Source of the DNA: Dysgonomonas sp. HDW5A
GTDB taxonomy: Bacteria; Bacteroidota; Bacteroidia; Bacteroidales; Dysgonomonadaceae
DNA length: 64,000 nucleotides
Direction of reading: 5' to 3'
Assembly: GCF_011299555.1 (NCBI RefSeq)
Contig: NZ_CP049857.1
Coordinates: 2,852,001-2,916,000, forward strand
The notes under the pieces are model-generated. The model made no database searches and was not told the DNA's origin. It saw only the letters and a program-made list of their open reading frames with translations. Both the position numbers and the translations under genes were made by a program. This document shows, in pieces, positions 2,970-61,870 of this stretch (positions are counted from its first letter, which is position 1; the number at the start of each line of letters is the position of its first letter).

Positions 2970-3486
2970 ATGTCAATCATTGGTTGAAAATAAGTGTTCT
3001 TTTACCTTTTACTAACGCACCCTATCGGGTTTGTTTTTCATTTTGCCTTGATGCAAAACGAAACAAAAGATCAAGACTGTGCCTTTTACCCGACCCGCTA
3101 CGGACTCGAAAGCTAAAACAAAAGAAAACATTTATAGATAATATCCTTTTGTTTCTTAACGCTTTTATTCGCCCTACGGGTGCTCCGTGCAACCGACAAG
3201 GTCGGAAACCTGACCGACGAAAGCGATTTACGTGCGTCAGCTCGAGTGCATCAGTGGAGTAGCCGTTGGCTGACAAGCGAAGCAGGCGTAAAACTAAACG
3301 TGCCATAAGGCAGTAGGTTTAGTTTAGGCTGCAAGCTAAAATCAGACAGGCGAGCCACGCAGCACAAAGCCTTTTTGATTCCTTTTGCGGCTTTGGGCAA
3401 AAGGAATACAAGCAATCTTCGATTGCGCGTAGAAAAACAAATAATTTAAAAGAACATATATATTGAACTACTCATTCACCTAAACA
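2970..3486 (+). repeat. ~0.5 kb interspersed element, copy A
   Basis: The core (about 3013-3432) starts CTAACGCACCC and ends GATTGCGCGTAG. It is nearly the same as copies at 17470, 29716 and 61372. It contains many hairpins, for example ATTCCTTTTGC/GCAAAAGGAAT and GCAATC/GATTGC. Outer arms TGTTCTTTTA (2995-3004) and TAAAAGAACA (3447-3456) are exact reverse complements. Small open frames inside it are not conserved between copies. The copy begins directly after the stop codon of the upstream gene. Confidence 0.9.
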
Positions 3487-3511
3487 ATACACAGACTTTA
3501 ATACACATATT

Positions 3512-8777: not shown

Positions 8778-8834
8778 TTTAGGAACAATTCTCAATTATC
8801 GATATTTTTATTTTATAATATTTTATTTAATTAA

Positions 8835-10259
8835 ATGAAAAACAAAACCTTATTGACCCTCTTTTTGTCGGTAACTACTTTGTCTTCGGCATGGGCACAG
8901 ACTTTTGTGCATGAAAAATCTGAGACATACACATATCCCAAAGATGCCCAAGTGTTGGAAAAGCTAGATAAGTGGCAGGATCAGAAGTTTGGAATGCTTA
9001 TTCATTACGGGCTATATTCCGAACTGGGGATAGTTGAGTCGTGGACTCTGTGTGCCGAAGATTGGATTAATCGCGATTCTACCATTACTTATGACGAATA
9101 CAAACAACGTTATTGGGCAACCATCGATCGTTTTAATCCTACCAAACTGGATCCTGCCTCATGGGCAAAATCGGGAAAGGAAGCCGGGATGAAGTATGTT
9201 GTATTTACGACTAAGCATCACGATGGTTTCAATATGTACGATACAAAGTACAGCGATTTCTCGATTGCTAACGGGCCTTTTAAGAACGATGCCCGTAAGA
9301 ATGTAGCCAAAGAAGTTTTTAATGCATTTCGCAACGAAGGGTATATGATAGGTGCGTATTATTCTAAACCCGATTGGCACTCGCAATATTATTGGTGGGA
9401 CAGGTATTCGACGCCCGACCGTAACCCAAGTTACAGTATTGATGCAAATCCGTGGAGATGGAATAAATTCAAAGAGTATACCTATAATCAGATCGAAGAA
9501 TTGATGAATGGCAATTATGGCAGTATGGATATTCTTTGGCTCGATGGCGGGTGGGTGCGTCCTTCGAAAAAAGGTGATGCAGGACTCGAAGGCGATTTTT
9601 ACAGAGGTTCGCAAGATATAGATATGCCTAAGATTGCAGCAATGGCTCGCAGTTATCAGCCCGGATTATTGGTCGTAGACAGAACTGTATCGGGTGAATT
9701 CGAAAATTATCAGACACCCGAAAACGGTATCCCTAAGCAACAATTGAGTAATCCATGGGAAAGTTGTATTACATTGGGTGGAGCATGGGGCTTTGTGAAA
9801 AATGACAGATATAAAAGTAACTATAAGGTGATAGCCATTCTGAGTGAAATTGTTGCCAAAGGTGGTAATTTATTATTGGGAGTAGGACCTGCTCCTGATG
9901 GAACATTGCCGGCTGAGGTATCAAAACGTCTGTCTGAGATAGGGGAGTGGACTGCCAAAAACGGAGAGGCAATATATAATACGCGAATTACTCCTATATA
10001 TAATGACGGATCAACTTGGTTTACTCAAAGTAAAGACGGAAAGAAGATGTATGCCATACATTGTCTTGAAGAAGGAAAAGCTATGCCTAAGACTGTTGTA
10101 TGGAAAGGAAACGATCCTGCAAAAGGTTCGAAGGTGATATTTCTGCAAACAGGTAAGGCTGTCAATTGGAAAAAGACATCACAAGGTGTAGAGGTTTCAG
10201 TACCATCGGGGCTTCCGTCCAATCAGCCTGCACTGGCTTTTGCTTTTAGTGCCGAATGA
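8835..10259 (+). CDS. Alpha-L-fucosidase, GH29 (copy 1)
   Basis: This 474-residue secreted enzyme has a signal peptide (MKNKTLLTLFLSVTTLSSAWAQ) and a full GH29 catalytic barrel: FGMLIHYGLYS, FTTKHHDGFNMYDTKYSDF, then DILWLDGGW, in which Asp237 is the expected nucleophile. A C-terminal beta domain follows from about residue 370. GH29 enzymes release terminal L-fucose from glycans by a retaining mechanism, here probably in the periplasm or outside the cell. The second copy at 10347 follows after 87 nt in the same direction; no SusC/SusD pair or fucose catabolic gene is adjacent. Confidence 0.92.
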   Translation: MKNKTLLTLFLSVTTLSSAWAQTFVHEKSETYTYPKDAQVLEKLDKWQDQKFGMLIHYGLYSELGIVESWTLCAEDWINRDSTITYDEYKQRYWATIDRFNPTKLDPASWAKSGKEAGMKYVVFTTKHHDGFNMYDTKYSDFSIANGPFKNDARKNVAKEVFNAFRNEGYMIGAYYSKPDWHSQYYWWDRYSTPDRNPSYSIDANPWRWNKFKEYTYNQIEELMNGNYGSMDILWLDGGWVRPSKKGDAGLEGDFYRGSQDIDMPKIAAMARSYQPGLLVVDRTVSGEFENYQTPENGIPKQQLSNPWESCITLGGAWGFVKNDRYKSNYKVIAILSEIVAKGGNLLLGVGPAPDGTLPAEVSKRLSEIGEWTAKNGEAIYNTRITPIYNDGSTWFTQSKDGKKMYAIHCLEEGKAMPKTVVWKGNDPAKGSKVIFLQTGKAVNWKKTSQGVEVSVPSGLPSNQPALAFAFSAE

Positions 10260-10317
10260 TATTTGGTATACCTCTAAAATACAGAAATAAATCATTAGAT
10301 ACTCTCAATAACTTAAT

Positions 10318-10330
10318 AGGTCTGAGACCT
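10318..10330. repeat. Short palindrome AGGTCTGAGACCT
   Basis: A perfect 13-mer palindrome lying 17 nt before the second fucosidase ATG. It is one of a dispersed family (see 22885, 45890, 48231, 57166). Confidence 0.7.
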
Positions 10331-10346
10331 TAAATATTACCGATTA

Positions 10347-11789
10347 ATGAAAAATAAAGTTTTATCCCTCTTCCTACTTTCTGCACTTGCAGTATCTACG
10401 GCTTCAGCCCAGACATATGCGCATGGCAGATCAGAGACGTATACAGCTCCTACTGATGCTAAAGTTTTAGAAAAGCTCGATAAATGGCAGGATCAAAAAT
10501 TCGGTATGCTTATTCATTATGGATTATATTCTCAAATGGGAATTGTAGAATCTTGGTCGATATGTGCCGAAGAAGAAGATTGGATTCCTCGCGACAGTAC
10601 CATTGCATATGATGCTTATAAACGTAAGTACTGGAATGTTATCAATGAATTTAATCCTACAAAACTAGATCCGGCCTCATGGGCAAAGGTTGGTAAGCAA
10701 GCCGGTATGAAGTACGCGGTATTTACCACCAAGCATCACGATGGGTTTAATATGTTTGATACTAAACAAACTGATTTTTCGATAGCAAACGGAGCTTTCA
10801 AGAATGATCCACGCCGTAATGTAGCTAAAGAAGTCTTCAATGCATTTCGTAACGAAGGATATATGATAGGTGCATATTATTCTAAACCCGACTGGCATTG
10901 TCAATATTATTGGTGGGACAGATATGCAACCCCTACCAGAAACGTTAATTATAATATAGAGAATAATAAGTGGCGTTGGAATAAATTTAAAGAGTTTTCT
11001 TATAATCAAATTCAAGAACTAATGAATGGTGATTATGGAAACATAGATATTCTTTGGCTCGATGGAGGTTGGGTACGTCCTGCCCGTGAGGGAGACGCTG
11101 CTCGTCAAGGTCGTGCATACAAAGGTTCACAGGATATAGATATGCCTAAGATTGCCGCCATGGCTCGTAGTTATCAGCCCGGATTGTTGGTTGTAGATCG
11201 TACAGTACCCGGCGAATTCGAAAATTATCAGACACCCGAACGCGGTATTCCCGATATGCAACTCGATAATCCGTGGGAAAGCTGCATTACCTTAGGTTGG
11301 GATTGGGGTTATACTCCTACCGATCAGTATAAATCGCCTGCTGCGGTTATTCATACTTTAGTAGAAATTGTAGCTAAAGGTGGAAATTTATTATTAGGAA
11401 TAGGCCCGAAGCCTGACGGAACGCTTCCGGATGAGGTGACTCAGCGCTTGATTAAAATCGGTGATTGGACTACCAAAAACGGAGAGGCTATTTATAATAC
11501 ACGTATTACTCCTAACTATCGGGATGGAGCAACTTGGTTCACACAAAGTAAAGATGGTGATACAATTTATGCAATTACAAATCTTGAAGAAGGAAAGCCT
11601 ATACCAAAGACCATAGTCTGGAATGCTAATGAACCGGCAAAAGGTTCAAAGATGATTTTTTTACAAACAGGTAAGGCTGTAAATTGGAAAAAAACAGCTA
11701 AGGGAATTGAGGTTTCAGTGCCTTCAGGTCTTCCTGCCGATCAAGCAGCTTTGGCTTTTTCTTTTATCGGCACAAAAAATAAAAGTTAA
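10347..11789 (+). CDS. Alpha-L-fucosidase, GH29 (copy 2)
   Basis: This 480-residue enzyme is a close paralogue of the preceding gene and is collinear almost throughout. It keeps the signal peptide, HHDGF motif and DILWLDGGW with Asp239 as expected nucleophile. Differences include a two-residue insertion near residue 75 (CAEEEDW against CAEDW), a changed GWDWGY segment and a C-terminal tail TKNKS. The pair is best read as a recent tandem duplication that may have diverged in linkage preference. The 87-nt spacer contains an AGGTCTGAGACCT palindrome directly before this start. A GCAAGCC/GGGCTTGC hairpin follows at 11817-11848. Confidence 0.92.
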   Translation: MKNKVLSLFLLSALAVSTASAQTYAHGRSETYTAPTDAKVLEKLDKWQDQKFGMLIHYGLYSQMGIVESWSICAEEEDWIPRDSTIAYDAYKRKYWNVINEFNPTKLDPASWAKVGKQAGMKYAVFTTKHHDGFNMFDTKQTDFSIANGAFKNDPRRNVAKEVFNAFRNEGYMIGAYYSKPDWHCQYYWWDRYATPTRNVNYNIENNKWRWNKFKEFSYNQIQELMNGDYGNIDILWLDGGWVRPAREGDAARQGRAYKGSQDIDMPKIAAMARSYQPGLLVVDRTVPGEFENYQTPERGIPDMQLDNPWESCITLGWDWGYTPTDQYKSPAAVIHTLVEIVAKGGNLLLGIGPKPDGTLPDEVTQRLIKIGDWTTKNGEAIYNTRITPNYRDGATWFTQSKDGDTIYAITNLEEGKPIPKTIVWNANEPAKGSKMIFLQTGKAVNWKKTAKGIEVSVPSGLPADQAALAFSFIGTKNKS

Positions 11790-17469: not shown

Positions 17470-17999
17470 ATGTATGAATAATGTCAATCAGTAGTTGGGA
17501 TTATATGTTCAATTTAGTTGTCTTTTTTCTACGCGCAATCAAAGATTGCTTGTATTCCTTTTGCCCAAATCCGCAAAAGGAATCAAAAAGGCTTTGTGCT
17601 GCGTGGCTCGCCTGTCTGACTAAAGCTTACAGGCTAAACTAAACCCACTGCCTTACGGCACGTTTAGTTTTACGCCCGCTTCGCTTGTCAGCCAACGGCT
17701 ACGCCACTGATGCACCAGGGCTGACGCACGTAAGTGGCTTTCGTCCGTCAGGTTTCCTGACCTTGGCGGTTGCACGGGGTACCCGCAGGGTGAAGAAAGC
17801 GTTAAAAAACAAAAGGATATCAATGATAAATGTTTTCTTTTGTTTTAGCTTTCGAGTCCGTAGCGGGTCGGGCAAAAGGCACAGTCTTGATCTTTTGTTT
17901 CGTTTTGCATCAAGGCAAAATGAAAAACAAACCCATAGGGTGCGTTAGAAAAATTGAACATTAAACATAACAGATCAACTACTGATTCGAATGAATAAA
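17470..17999 (-). repeat. ~0.5 kb interspersed element, copy B
   Basis: Inverted relative to copies A and C. Core about 17529-17949. Inner arms ATGTTCAATTT (17505-17515) and AAATTGAACAT (17951-17961) are exact reverse complements. Outer arms AATCAGTAGTTG (17486-17497) and CAACTACTGATT (17976-17987) are also exact. Its right end abuts a truncated CPBP-protease gene. Confidence 0.92.
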
Positions 18000-24447: not shown

Positions 24448-27051
24448 ATGAAAAGAAAAATTTTATCTATCGGAGTTTTACTTCTAACGGGTGGAATAAC
24501 ATATGCACAAGTAGGTATAAATACCGAAGATCCTAAAGCAACATTGGATGTGATGCCTACCACTACGGGAGCGTCAACGGCTGAAGGATTTATTGCACCC
24601 CGATTGACACGTACTCAAATAATAAGTAAGGATACACAATACGCATTACCTCAAACGGGTACAATTGTATATGTTACAGACTTATCGGGATCTACAACGA
24701 CCAAGACAGCAAAGATAACTCAGATAGGTTATTACTATTTCGACGGAACTTTGTGGCAGCCATTTACCTCTTCTGCTGTAGCCAGTTCAAATCCATGGTA
24801 CAAAGTGGGGACTGCACTGCCGTCGACATTGAATACCGATGATTCGTACCTGACAGCTAAAACGGTTATTGGTGGAAATACCATTGCTTCTATCAACGGA
24901 GGAACAAACAATGCTCAACTCACAGTAGTGGGAGAGGATGCTGTCATTAATGGCATAACTGTAGGGAAAGGTTCGGGTGGAGCAAGCTCTAGCACCGCAG
25001 TGGGTGCCTCGGCATTAGAATCTGTCAGTTCATCCGGTAGTTTAAATACAGCAGTGGGGTCGCAAGCGATGCAGTATGCAGCAACAACTTCGGGTAGCAA
25101 TACCGCAATAGGGGCTGCTGCATTGCGGGGTACTGCATCTAACTCATTTTCGGGAAACACGGCAGTTGGTAATGGTGCTATCCAATTAGTAACTAGCGGA
25201 AGTCAAAATACAGCTATGGGCTCTGTTGCTCTTTTTAGAAACACATCGGGTAATAACAATACCGCAATAGGATGGAACGCTTTGCTAAACAATTCAGCAG
25301 GGAATTATAATACAGCTTTAGGTTCTTCGGCATTATTAAGAACTACAGCCTCTGATAATATTGGGATAGGTTTAAATGCCGGTTCTGATTTAACAACAGG
25401 AGGCAACAATCTTATTATAGGAACAAATGCGCAAGCCCCTACTGCTACAGCCAGTAACCAGATGAATATTGGTAATGCTCTATTTGGAATTACAAGCACA
25501 TCCAACTCTACTCCCGGACGTGTGAGTATCGGTAAAACAGCTCCTGCATCAGGCGTATATTTAGACGTAGCCGGGTTAACTCAAATAACTGGAGCCAATA
25601 CATTGAGATATGTAGATGGAAATCAGGCAGCAGGAAAGGTTTTGGTGTCTGATGCGTCTGGTAATGCTTCGTGGGGTACATTACCTGCTGCTACTGTAAC
25701 TACTGCCAATAATGGTTTGACAATGAACGGAACAACTACTCAATTGGGAGGTGCTTTGACCCAAGCCACAAGCATTACAGGAGCAAGTCGACTGACATTA
25801 GCTACCCCGACTACCGTATCGGGAGCACTTCAAATAAGTAGCGGTACTCCCGGAGCGGGTAGGGTGTTAACATCCGATGCCAGCGGAAATGCTTCGTGGG
25901 GTACATTACCTGCTGCTACTGTAACTACTGCCAATAATGGTTTGACAATAAACGGTACAACTACTCAATTAGGAGGAGCTTTGACCCAAGCGACAAATAT
26001 CACGGGAGCAAGTCGACTGACATTAGCTACCCCGACTACCGTATCGGGAGCACTTCAAATAAGCAGTGGTACTCCCGGAGCGGGTAGGGTGTTAACATCC
26101 GATGCCAGCGGAAATGCTACGTGGGTTGCACCTACTGTAACTACTGCCAATAATGGTTTGACAATGAACGGAACAACTACTCAATTGGGAGGTGCTTTGA
26201 CCCAAGCCACAAGCATCACTGGAGCAAGTCGACTGACTTTAGCTACCCCGACTACCGTATCGGGAGCACTTCAAATAAGCAGTGGTACTCCAGGGGCTGG
26301 TAGGGTGTTAACATCCGATGCCAGCGGAAATGCTTCGTGGGGTACATTACCTGCTGCTACTGTAACTACTGCTAACAATGGTTTGACAATGAACGGAACA
26401 ACTACTCAATTGGGAGGTGCTTTGACCCAAGCTACAAATATCACGGGAGCAAGCCGACTGACTTTAGCTACCCCGACTACCGTATCGGGAGCACTTCAAA
26501 TAAGCAGTGGTACTCCAGGGGCTGGTAAAATATTAACATCGGATGCCAGCGGTAATGCTTCGTGGACTCAGCCAAACATACTTAAATCTCCCTTGTTTCC
26601 GTCTTCCAGTGGAACATCTTATAATGGACCTTTAGGACCAAATATTAATAGTGGAATAAGTGTAACTTTACCTGCCAATTCAACGTGGATTATACATCTA
26701 GAACAATTGATCCGATTTAACAGGGCTTTGAAAACATACCAATCCGGTGGCAATATATTGAGTGAGGGAATATGGTTAAGATTCAATTGGTCCGACACTC
26801 CGACAGGATCTGGATCTGGGGATATTACTGCTGGAAAGTTAATTTCTGTAGCTTGTTATCCGGGTCCTAATTATCATTTACTTATTGGTGATTCGGTTAT
26901 TAGAAATACTTCAGCGTCAAGCAAAACCTACTACTTAACAACATCAGTTGTTGATTCAAATGGTTTAGATCCTAGTAGCCCGATTACTTTTAATGGATTG
27001 TTTTTTGGATGGAGCGAAAATACGCTATTTGCAATTCCTGCAAATAATTAA
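24448..27051 (+). CDS. Large repeat-rich surface protein, YadA-head-like and tandem repeats
   Basis: This 867-residue secreted protein starts with a signal peptide and QVGINTEDPKATLDV. Residues about 180-300 contain at least seven head-like motifs (NTAVGSQAM, NTAIGAAAL, NTAMGSVAL, NTAIGWNAL, NTALGSSAL), as in YadA-type adhesin heads. Residues about 417-707 are four near-identical repeats of 75 codons (one of 72). The last ~155 residues form a distinct C-terminal domain. It is likely a fibrous adhesin or surface fibre. The nearly identical DNA repeats allow copy-number change by recombination. The AG tract upstream suggests switchable expression; this is inference. Confidence 0.85.
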   Translation: MKRKILSIGVLLLTGGITYAQVGINTEDPKATLDVMPTTTGASTAEGFIAPRLTRTQIISKDTQYALPQTGTIVYVTDLSGSTTTKTAKITQIGYYYFDGTLWQPFTSSAVASSNPWYKVGTALPSTLNTDDSYLTAKTVIGGNTIASINGGTNNAQLTVVGEDAVINGITVGKGSGGASSSTAVGASALESVSSSGSLNTAVGSQAMQYAATTSGSNTAIGAAALRGTASNSFSGNTAVGNGAIQLVTSGSQNTAMGSVALFRNTSGNNNTAIGWNALLNNSAGNYNTALGSSALLRTTASDNIGIGLNAGSDLTTGGNNLIIGTNAQAPTATASNQMNIGNALFGITSTSNSTPGRVSIGKTAPASGVYLDVAGLTQITGANTLRYVDGNQAAGKVLVSDASGNASWGTLPAATVTTANNGLTMNGTTTQLGGALTQATSITGASRLTLATPTTVSGALQISSGTPGAGRVLTSDASGNASWGTLPAATVTTANNGLTINGTTTQLGGALTQATNITGASRLTLATPTTVSGALQISSGTPGAGRVLTSDASGNATWVAPTVTTANNGLTMNGTTTQLGGALTQATSITGASRLTLATPTTVSGALQISSGTPGAGRVLTSDASGNASWGTLPAATVTTANNGLTMNGTTTQLGGALTQATNITGASRLTLATPTTVSGALQISSGTPGAGKILTSDASGNASWTQPNILKSPLFPSSSGTSYNGPLGPNINSGISVTLPANSTWIIHLEQLIRFNRALKTYQSGGNILSEGIWLRFNWSDTPTGSGSGDITAGKLISVACYPGPNYHLLIGDSVIRNTSASSKTYYLTTSVVDSNGLDPSSPITFNGLFFGWSENTLFAIPANN
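25696..26568 (+). repeat. Four tandem 225-bp repeats inside the surface-protein gene
   Basis: Units start at 25696, 25921, 26137 and 26362 (225, 216, 225 and about 207 bp), each opening GTAACTACTGC and encoding NNGLT(M/I)NGTTTQLGGALTQA and GRVLTSDASGNASW. The 216-bp unit lacks three codons (WVAPT instead of WGTLPAAT). Identity between units is very high, indicating recent expansion or gene conversion. Confidence 0.95.
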
Positions 27052-27888: not shown

Positions 27889-27935
27889 GTTTTCTTAATT
27901 TGTGAGGATAAAGATAAATAACTAAAATAGATAAT

Positions 27936-27973
27936 GATGCAAAACGAAACAAAAGATCAAGACTGAGCCTCTG
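27936..27973 (+). repeat. Isolated fragment of the interspersed element
   Basis: Thirty-eight bases match the internal stretch of copy C from GATGCAAAACG to GACTGAGCCTCT and then diverge. No arms or other parts of the element are present. Confidence 0.75.
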
Positions 27974-29666: not shown

Positions 29667-29715
29667 TTTTTATCAAGGTCGGATATTTTATAAATACCCC
29701 TTAATCTTTATATTT

Positions 29716-30245
29716 GTATGAATTATGTCCATCAGTAGTTGGGATTATATGTTCTATTATTCTAACGCACCCTTTGGGTTTGTTTTTCATTTTGCCTTGA
29801 TGCAAAACGAAACAAAAGATCAAGACTGAGCCTCTTTGCCCGACCCGCTACGGACTCGAAAGCTAAAACAAAAGAAAAACATTTAGACGTTGATCTCCTT
29901 TTGTTTCTTAACGCTTTCTTCATCCTACGGGTACCCCGTGCAAACGCCAAGGTCGGAAGCCTGACGGACAAAAGCTATTTGCGTGCGTCAGCCCTAGTGC
30001 ATCAGAGGCACAGCCGTTGGCTGACAAGCGAAACAGGCGTAAAACTAAACGTGCCGAAAGGCAATAAGTTTAGTTTAGCCTGTAAGCTTAAGTCAGACAG
30101 GTGAGCCACGCAGCACAAAGCCTTTTTGATTCCTTTTGCGGCTTTGGGTAAAAGGAATACAAGCAATCTTTGATTGTGCGTAGTAAAAAGACAATTTAAT
30201 AGAACATTAAACAAAACAAATCGACTACTGATTCGCATGAATACT
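29716..30245 (+). repeat. ~0.5 kb interspersed element, copy C
   Basis: Same orientation as copy A. Core about 29762-30183. Inner arms ATGTTCTATTA (29749-29759) and TAATAGAACAT (30197-30207) are exact complements. Outer arms ATCAGTAGT (29731-29739) and ACTACTGAT (30224-30232) are also complementary. Together with the core hairpins, the whole unit could fold into a closed, highly structured molecule. It contains no conserved protein frame. Confidence 0.92.
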
Positions 30246-30265
30246 AATCTATATAAGTAAAGAAT

Positions 30266-49121: not shown

Positions 49122-49200
49122 GAAATATAAATATAATGAAAAAATCTAATATTGGCTTCCTATATCCGTAATTATTGAGATATTTAAAGTTACAATCTCT
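49122..49200 (-). repeat. Direct repeat copy 1 flanking the DJ-1 gene
   Basis: About 77 bp sharing roughly nine in ten bases with 50115-50192 (both begin AAATATAAATATAATGAAAA). It lies upstream of the HD gene as copy 2 lies upstream of the DJ-1/PfpI gene. Confidence 0.8.
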
Positions 49201-50114: not shown

Positions 50115-50192
50115 TAAATATAAATATAATGAAAAGATCTAATATTTGCTCCCTATATTCGTAATTATTGAAATATTTAAGGTTATACTCTG
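50115..50192 (-). repeat. Direct repeat copy 2 flanking the DJ-1 gene
   Basis: Matches 49122-49200. It starts 17 nt upstream of the DJ-1/PfpI start codon. Confidence 0.8.
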
Positions 50193-61371: not shown

Positions 61372-61870
61372 TATTTAAAGTTATAATTATCGGTTGTTGA
61401 GCTTTTCTTACATTTATTCTTCTACGCACAATCGAAGATTGCTTGTATTCCTTTTGCCCAAAGCCGCAAAAGGAATCAAAAAGGCTTTGTACTGCGTGGC
61501 TCGCCTGTCTGACTTTAGCTTGCAGCCTAAACTAAACCTACTGCCTTATGGCACGTTTAGTTTTACGCCCGTTTCGCTTGTCAGCCAACGGCTACTCCAC
61601 TGATGCACTCGAGCTGACGCCTACAAATGGCTTTTGTCCTTCTGGCTACTCGACCTTGTCGGTTGCACGGAGCACCCGTAGGGCGAATAAAAGCGTTAAG
61701 AAACAAAAGGATATTATCGTTAAATGTTTTCTTTTGTTTTAGCTTTCGAGTCCGTAGCGGGTCGGGTAAAAGGCACAGTCTTGATCTTTTGTTTCGTTTT
61801 GCATCAAGGCAAAATGAAAAACAAACCCAAAGGGTGCGTTAGGAAAATAGTACTTTAAAACTATATTTGG
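61372..61870 (-). repeat. ~0.5 kb interspersed element, copy D
   Basis: Inverted relative to copies A and C. Core about 61431-61841. Arms TTTAAAGT (61374-61381) and ACTTTAAA (61852-61859) are exact complements, but different from the arms of copies A-C. It contains the same internal hairpins. Confidence 0.9.

Follow-up and report, generated by a model that had tools for sequence, protein, structure and literature searches.

Among described bacterial repeats, MITECca01 of Cardinium (Bacteroidota) is an IS982-derived MITE of ~240 bp with 169 copies, and its intact parent insertion sequence (IS) is present in the same genome (PMC9769881, in the excerpted text). BrickBuilt of Porphyromonas gingivalis, a second MITE from Bacteroidota, has an interior 23-nt tandem minisatellite and target duplications of varying length (excerpt of PMC4596501). 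REP elements (REP/RAYT systems) are 20-40 bp long and carry a GTAG or CGTC tag (PMC3733652, excerpted sections), and the invertons, or invertible promoters, of Bacteroidales are segments that invert between inverted repeats (PMC8748976 and PMC11892184, both in excerpt). Here, we describe an interspersed repeat of a Dysgonomonadaceae strain that shares features with each of these systems. In the reading that we favor, and that we regard as probable, it is a non-autonomous IS982-like MITE whose hairpin-rich core flips between inner arms, is homogenised among copies and owes its fold to DNA-level processes.

The window, a stretch of 64,000 nucleotides (G000:C1:2852001-2916000), comes from the 4.30-Mb single-contig genome of the source strain (G000). 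Copy C of the element occupies positions 29727-30237, between the target-site duplications TGAATTAT (29719-29726, placed from the sequence by offsets in the copy alignment) and TGAATACT (30238-30245), which carry no strand and agree at 6/8 positions. On the + strand it consists of a left outer arm (29727-29748), an IS982-like terminal inverted repeat of type L that also bounds the IS; the left inner arm ATGTTCTATTA (29749-29759); a hairpin-rich core of 421 bp (29763-30183); the right inner arm TAATAGAACAT (30197-30207); and a right outer arm (30208-30237), an IS982-like terminal inverted repeat of type R. Copy A (locus L023; 2972-3480, + strand, core at 3013-3432) is flanked by the duplication TAAACAAT at 2964-2971 and 3481-3488, and copy B (locus L011; 17482-17990, - strand, core at 17529-17947 on the minus strand) by ATGAATAA at 17474-17481 and 17991-17998; both duplications agree at 8/8 positions. 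The core of copy B is reversed between its L and R arms relative to copy C. For copy D (locus L026) the core alone could be delimited (61422-61841, - strand), as its arms have decayed and its target duplication is not scorable, and a further copy, L017 (1-90, - strand, core ending at 59), is cut by the window edge, its full length extending leftward beyond the window. The original prediction, which had been made from the sequence of the window, named these five copies, the one at position 1 as partial, in both orientations, and all were located at their places. An isolated 38-bp core fragment, identical to positions 83-120 of query C, lies at 27935-27972 (+ strand) without arms, ~1.8 kb away from copy C.

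In the source genome, 62 stretches match copy C, which we count as ~31 near-complete copies (C included; 82-92% identical to it) plus fragments and arm pieces. The element is ~510 bp long, and the longest ORF overlapping copy C has 78 aa, so that it holds no transposase gene of its own. By simple ORF calls, none of 29 copies (L028 and L031 excluded) lies inside an ORF; the neighboring genes are divergent for 10 copies, tandem for 18 and convergent for 1. L028 lacks an intact right end and stands outside the set of 30 copies used below. Other repeats in the window comprise four tandem copies of a 300-nt unit (25686-26651) at a spacing of 216-225 bp and with 71-95% identity to the reference, which may encode a repeat protein; blocks that recur ~1,515 bp apart at 71-80% identity (8834-11663), possibly tandem paralogous genes; and a 76-nt AT-rich sequence found twice (49123-49198 and 50116-50191), 993 bp apart and with 89% identity.

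The outer arms are longer than originally seen. With copies placed by their core, they read GTCAATCAGTAGTTGGGATTATATGTTC (type L) and GCGAATCAGTAGTTGATCTGTTATGTTTAATGTTC (type R), and they are terminal inverted repeats flanked by 8-bp direct target duplications. Sixteen copies could be scored (14/30 had no recognisable repeat on one side), and in 12 of them the duplications agree at 7-8 of 8 positions, against a mean of 2.07 and a maximum of 9 of 16 when the two sides were re-paired among copies in 20,000 permutations; the other four, copy C included, agree at just 4-6 of 8. The insertion targets show a strong AT-rich preference. A comparison of insertion sites, proposed in the original prediction as a check, yielded 8-bp duplications and also some element-free sites: the gene gap measures 156 bp at L018 vs 722 bp at the element-holding L108, and the gene pair that flanks the L121 element leaves no room for one at L027. 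All 20 exact AATCAGTAGTTG matches in the source genome sit at ends of element copies, and no solo arm or IS with the same ends was found among these exact matches; with one mismatch there are 40 hits, not all of them placed, and a backward control pattern has 28 hits at up to one mismatch.

The same ends were found in 6/7 relatives searched. Some of those in G001 lead into the start of a transposase gene, and a search with this start recovered full-length elements of ~1.05 kb with the same terminal repeats; such ISs occur in G017, G009 and the order-level relative G026. Ends of the GCGAATCAGTAGTTGA type are present on the IS copies L181, L182, L198 and L183 as well as on the elements, and 6-7 of 8 bases flanking the IS copies agree by eye. 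The parent IS encodes a protein of 303 aa with a match to Pfam DDE_Tnp_1, which scored 109.5 bits (E = 1.9e-31) against the NCBIfam IS982 model NF033520; because it is related to IS982 but falls below the curated cut-off of 130, we call it 'IS982-like'. It had no match in the source genome at E <= 0.001, and 15 partial matches in G001, mostly at contig ends. The repeat has terminal inverted repeats and 8-bp duplications, lacks a transposase, and shares its ends with an IS of relatives. It is therefore a MITE-like, non-autonomous element derived from an IS982-like IS, which bears out the mobile unit that was one of the two identities originally proposed. As the transposase was not found in the source genome, we infer that an IS982-like DDE transposase mobilised the element in trans.

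These ends also surround other interiors. In G019, IS982-like terminal repeats at L141, L147, L153 and L157 enclose 255-373 bp of other sequence that looks like common bacterial repeats, and G001 has another family that carries these ends (L071, L160, L167 and L172; ~245-285 bp where measured), with an interior rich in GTGACA/GTTACA words. Since the same terminal repeats bound other interiors in both genomes, the ends act as a general carrier. A pair of ends 6.6 kb apart in G019 (L070) was considered as a large transposon and set aside, as its ORFs, judged by reading without a family scan, read as ordinary genes and the two ends appear to belong to separate repeats. The original statement that the element matches no described family holds for the core, which matched nothing described within the searches made here, but not for the ends, which belong to an IS982-like IS of a kind from which MITEs have been described (PMC9769881, in excerpt).

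Between the outer arms, the core lies in either orientation. In the source genome, the core lies one way between the L and R arms in 5 copies (LR) and the other way in 9 (RL), and 1 copy has two R arms (RR); in the other 15/30 the two sides could not both be typed. The LR and RL classes are scattered among each other in the core tree, many nodes of which have modest support. Among 27 loci of G001 there are 8 PQ and 3 QP, so that the two arms are of different type in 11/27, together with 5 PP and 11 untyped loci. The main argument for inversion in place comes from a few loci of G017, above all L221 and L223, whose cores are 0.995 identical when inverted vs 0.724 when direct and whose flanks agree upstream (0.952) and downstream (187/202), with the switch point in the inner arms; these values are to be read with the facts that the assembly has 7% contamination, that L221 lies near a contig end and that the two loci are paralogues. 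In all, the core is found in both directions among four loci of G017 whose upstream flanks are 95-98% identical (vs L221), and L220 and L226 share with L221 the upstream flank and 35 downstream bases. L226 (G017:C49:133500-134700) contains two half-cores of opposite orientation joined at an N; it looks like an assembly chimera, or else may reflect a sample in which both orientations were present.

Three loci were compared between species, with an aligner that tolerates gaps and gives ~0.73 for wrongly oriented cores, so that its identities inform on the contrast between orientations only. At L025/L043, a site common to G000 and G001, both flanks are common (141/169 and 169/200 bases; 0/300 shuffles as good) and the cores lie on opposite strands. 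At L023/L091, in the same two genomes, both flanks are again common and the core is on the same strand, so that 1/2 of the sites with two-flank support is inverted. A third site, L002/L110, is inverted too and has one-flank support: its right flank is common (109/126; 0/300 shuffles as good), and its left flanks are no more alike than shuffles (16/300 as good). L031/L055, neighbors in the core tree, were tried as a further shared site and rejected, as their flanking ORFs of at least 60 aa share nothing outside the element. From these sequence comparisons, the core appears to flip in place between matched arms.

The same data could be read as an ordinary IS982-type MITE with an old interior. 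Its two orientations would go back to one or a few events, and its 'inverted' sites would be independent insertions at AT-rich hot spots. The target preference is what such a history would leave, transposition could spread both orientation classes, and of the three candidate shared sites one has one-flank support and one is not inverted. However, hot-spot insertion does not readily give two common flanks around cores that are 99.5% identical when inverted, as at L221/L223, nor the two common flanks of L025/L043, nor the mixing of LR and RL copies through the core tree (many nodes modestly supported), and we regard this history as doubtful.

For most cores, the closest similarity is to copies of the same genome and not to the counterpart at a shared site. 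The core tree, from which cores of unusual length or partial coverage were left out, groups largely by genome; L091 and L110 fall inside the G001 group, and the exceptions are L043, L055, L044 and L031, with L043 equally close to the G000 cores and to L055 of G001. The core of L025 is 95% like its own-genome paralogue L003 and 85% like L043 at the shared site, and the cores compared at L023/L091 and L002/L110 are 70% and 68% identical. In the genes that flank L025/L043 and L023/L091, identity at fourfold sites is 38-58%. We infer that the cores are homogenised by gene conversion.

The letters first seen to covary belong to the inner arms, next to the core; these form the inner part of the longer arms and vary from copy to copy. 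Of 24 copies with the motif on both sides (6/30 were dropped), 12 have identical 5-mers after TTC on the two sides, where re-pairing gave an expectation of 3.56 (1 of 20,000 permutations); total matches were 96 vs 80.1 expected (0 of 20,000), and the first base alone matched in 16 vs 11.0 expected (p = 0.02), in a permutation that ignores relatedness and with motif placement doubtful in the decayed copies L019, L026 and L029. Inner arms are unmatched in, for example, L002, L003, L005, L007 and L008. The arms had been described as always complementary: the pairs of copies A, B and C are present and the matching is significant, but it is incomplete (12/24), and the pair given for copy D, TTTAAAGT/ACTTTAAA, has no homology with those of the other copies, the arms of D being decayed. 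If the inner arms recombined, or served as sites of template switching during replication, the core would flip, and the same process may also keep the two arms copies of each other; a single arm-to-arm process of this kind would explain why the arms 'covary'. The original idea that both ends are made from one template fits the apparent flipping of the core, although the connection between the two is one that we draw ourselves.

The core is ~420 bp long (403-456 bp), starts with TAACGCACCC and ends with GCGTAG. Its density of hairpins, noted from the outset, is real by the measure of predicted folding: for copy B, z = -7.0 and -7.1 on the two strands, with 0/100 shuffles equally stable. In the source genome, cores remain alike even where the arms have decayed. 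The covariation that the original prediction proposed to look for was found as compensatory change, in that 25/77 consensus pairs have changed on both sides with pairing kept (25 cores, five genomes), and among 30 cores of G000, divergence at paired positions (72 pairs predicted from both strands) is four times less than at other positions (2.0% vs 8.7%). If the core acted as an RNA from one strand, G-U changes should exceed A-C changes. In strand-neutral pairs, G-U:A-C changes number 21:18 in G000, 10:14 in G001 and 23:26 in the set of 61 cores (30, 18 and 61 sequences, respectively, cores of unusual length or partial coverage being left out). Pair sets predicted from one strand, a choice that itself favors wobbles, lean toward the wobbles of that strand; here they number 49:32 (forward), 32:109 (reverse) and 58:115 (union) for the 61 cores, and 31:15 (forward) and 16:31 (reverse) for G001. 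The equal G-U and A-C changes in strand-neutral pairs make an RNA less likely, and compensatory changes without strand bias in these pairs favor a DNA-level structure over RNA. Selection, or correction templated by the hairpins, would maintain the folded form in the DNA.

Imperfect inverted repeats correct each other by quasi-palindrome template switching, and the covariation might come purely from such mutual repair, with no structural selection. This account concerns the cause of the pairing only; it overlaps with the MITE and flipping core that we favor. It would produce pairs without strand bias when these are strand-neutral, and it suits the way in which arms and stems behave alike and the two sides of a pair often change together. 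The gap between 2.0% and 8.7% divergence, however, needs either constraint or very frequent correction, and the cores stay alike while the arms of the same copies decay, so that mutual repair as the whole cause of pairing seems to us rather unlikely.

The motif TTTG-N17-23-TANNTTTG, which we take to be the typical Bacteroidota promoter, occurs in 0/30 copies on either strand, and the idea of a promoter in the core was dropped because of this. The result also bears on a phase-variation switch, in which a dedicated tyrosine recombinase would invert the segment at the inner arms and alter the expression of neighboring genes. In its favor, the apparent inversions at shared loci are bounded by short inverted repeats, and 28/29 copies are faced by at least one gene start, with only 1 between convergent genes. 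Against it, besides the missing promoter motif, the element has no ORF above 78 aa, it exists in about 30 copies, and its inner arms differ among copies; we consider such a switch improbable.

Rfam, also named beforehand as a check, gave 0 matches at gathering scores in the whole window and 0 at E <= 1 in 29700-30260. The paired inner arms are real, but they do not in themselves point to an RNA gene. A structured gene or regulator that acts as RNA, is dispersed by the mobile element carrying it and is selected as RNA, would suit the very stable fold, the 25/77 compensatory pairs, the low divergence at paired positions and the wobble excess of one-strand pair sets, but the structured RNA gene family that had been the second original proposal is unlikely, and we give it very little credence, in view of the Rfam result, the lack of a G-U excess over A-C in pairs predicted from both strands, the presence of the core in both orientations and the missing TTTG-N17-23-TANNTTTG promoter in 30 copies.

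Relatives of the core occur outside this carrier. In G017, related cores lie in another repeat or adjoin a gene end; of 10 loci checked there at up to three mismatches, 9 contain no IS982-like repeat, and in the tenth the two hits, each with three mismatches, are hundreds of bases away from the core. A search of plasmids matched only Persicobacter sp. JZB09 (4 records), in one ~50-bp block (three of the four regions inspected), the CTTGAT of which may pair with an ATCAAG further on. The block on these plasmids (L138, L139 and L140), from a different Bacteroidota order, resembles the 5' block of the core. Phages gave no match, and an exact 30-mer of the 3' block recurred across the genome contigs in 6 stretches, all of them in Dysgonomonas sp. 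PF1-14. Because related cores sit in other repeats of G017 and a related block on the Persicobacter plasmids, the core superfamily probably predates the element that now carries it. A bolder and more tentative reading, possible but on balance not one we would expect to hold, is that the ~420-bp folded core is a DNA-structural invertible cassette that flips in place between short matched arms, is homogenised at most sites of a genome and travels on different carriers: an IS982-like MITE in some genera and a different repeat in G017. A related block would extend as far as Cytophagales plasmids. If this is true, such repeats would make up a bacterial class whose conserved and dynamic part is the passenger and not the transposon ends.

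These results pair two features in a testable way: an intergenic repeat would invert in place, and its interior would evolve in concert at old sites. To our knowledge, the two have not been reported jointly for a bacterial repeat. They also carry a warning for RNA discovery, as DNA-level processes can make dispersed repeats covary strongly and fold stably; counting G-U vs A-C changes in strand-neutral pairs can help to separate an RNA from a DNA-level origin. Within the scope of one library, a literature search by words and by sequence strings returned no description of the element.

Against the described systems, the element is most like MITECca01: both are non-autonomous, bear the ends of an IS982-family IS, and have many, mostly intergenic copies, whereas the parent was not found in the genome here, the element is longer (~510 bp) and less numerous (~31 near-complete copies), and its conserved hairpin-rich core lies in both orientations (PMC9769881, excerpted text). 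With BrickBuilt it shares an intergenic position in Bacteroidales and predicted stem-loops, but its target duplications are 8 bp and its folded core is non-tandem (PMC4596501, in excerpt). Like REP elements, it is interspersed extragenic palindromic DNA; unlike them, it has a ~420-bp core, DDE-type terminal repeats and 8-bp duplications, and a core of 403-456 bp is not the tagged 20-40-bp palindrome by which, in the excerpted definition, REP/RAYT systems are recognised (PMC3733652). Finally, as in Bacteroidales invertons, a segment would invert between inverted repeats, but here the segment has no promoter motif, is dispersed in ~31 near-complete copies on a transposon, and has an inversion that is deduced between loci and species rather than seen within a clone (PMC8748976 and PMC11892184, excerpts). 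What remains unusual beside all of these systems is the passenger, which is conserved, apparently flipping and homogenised.
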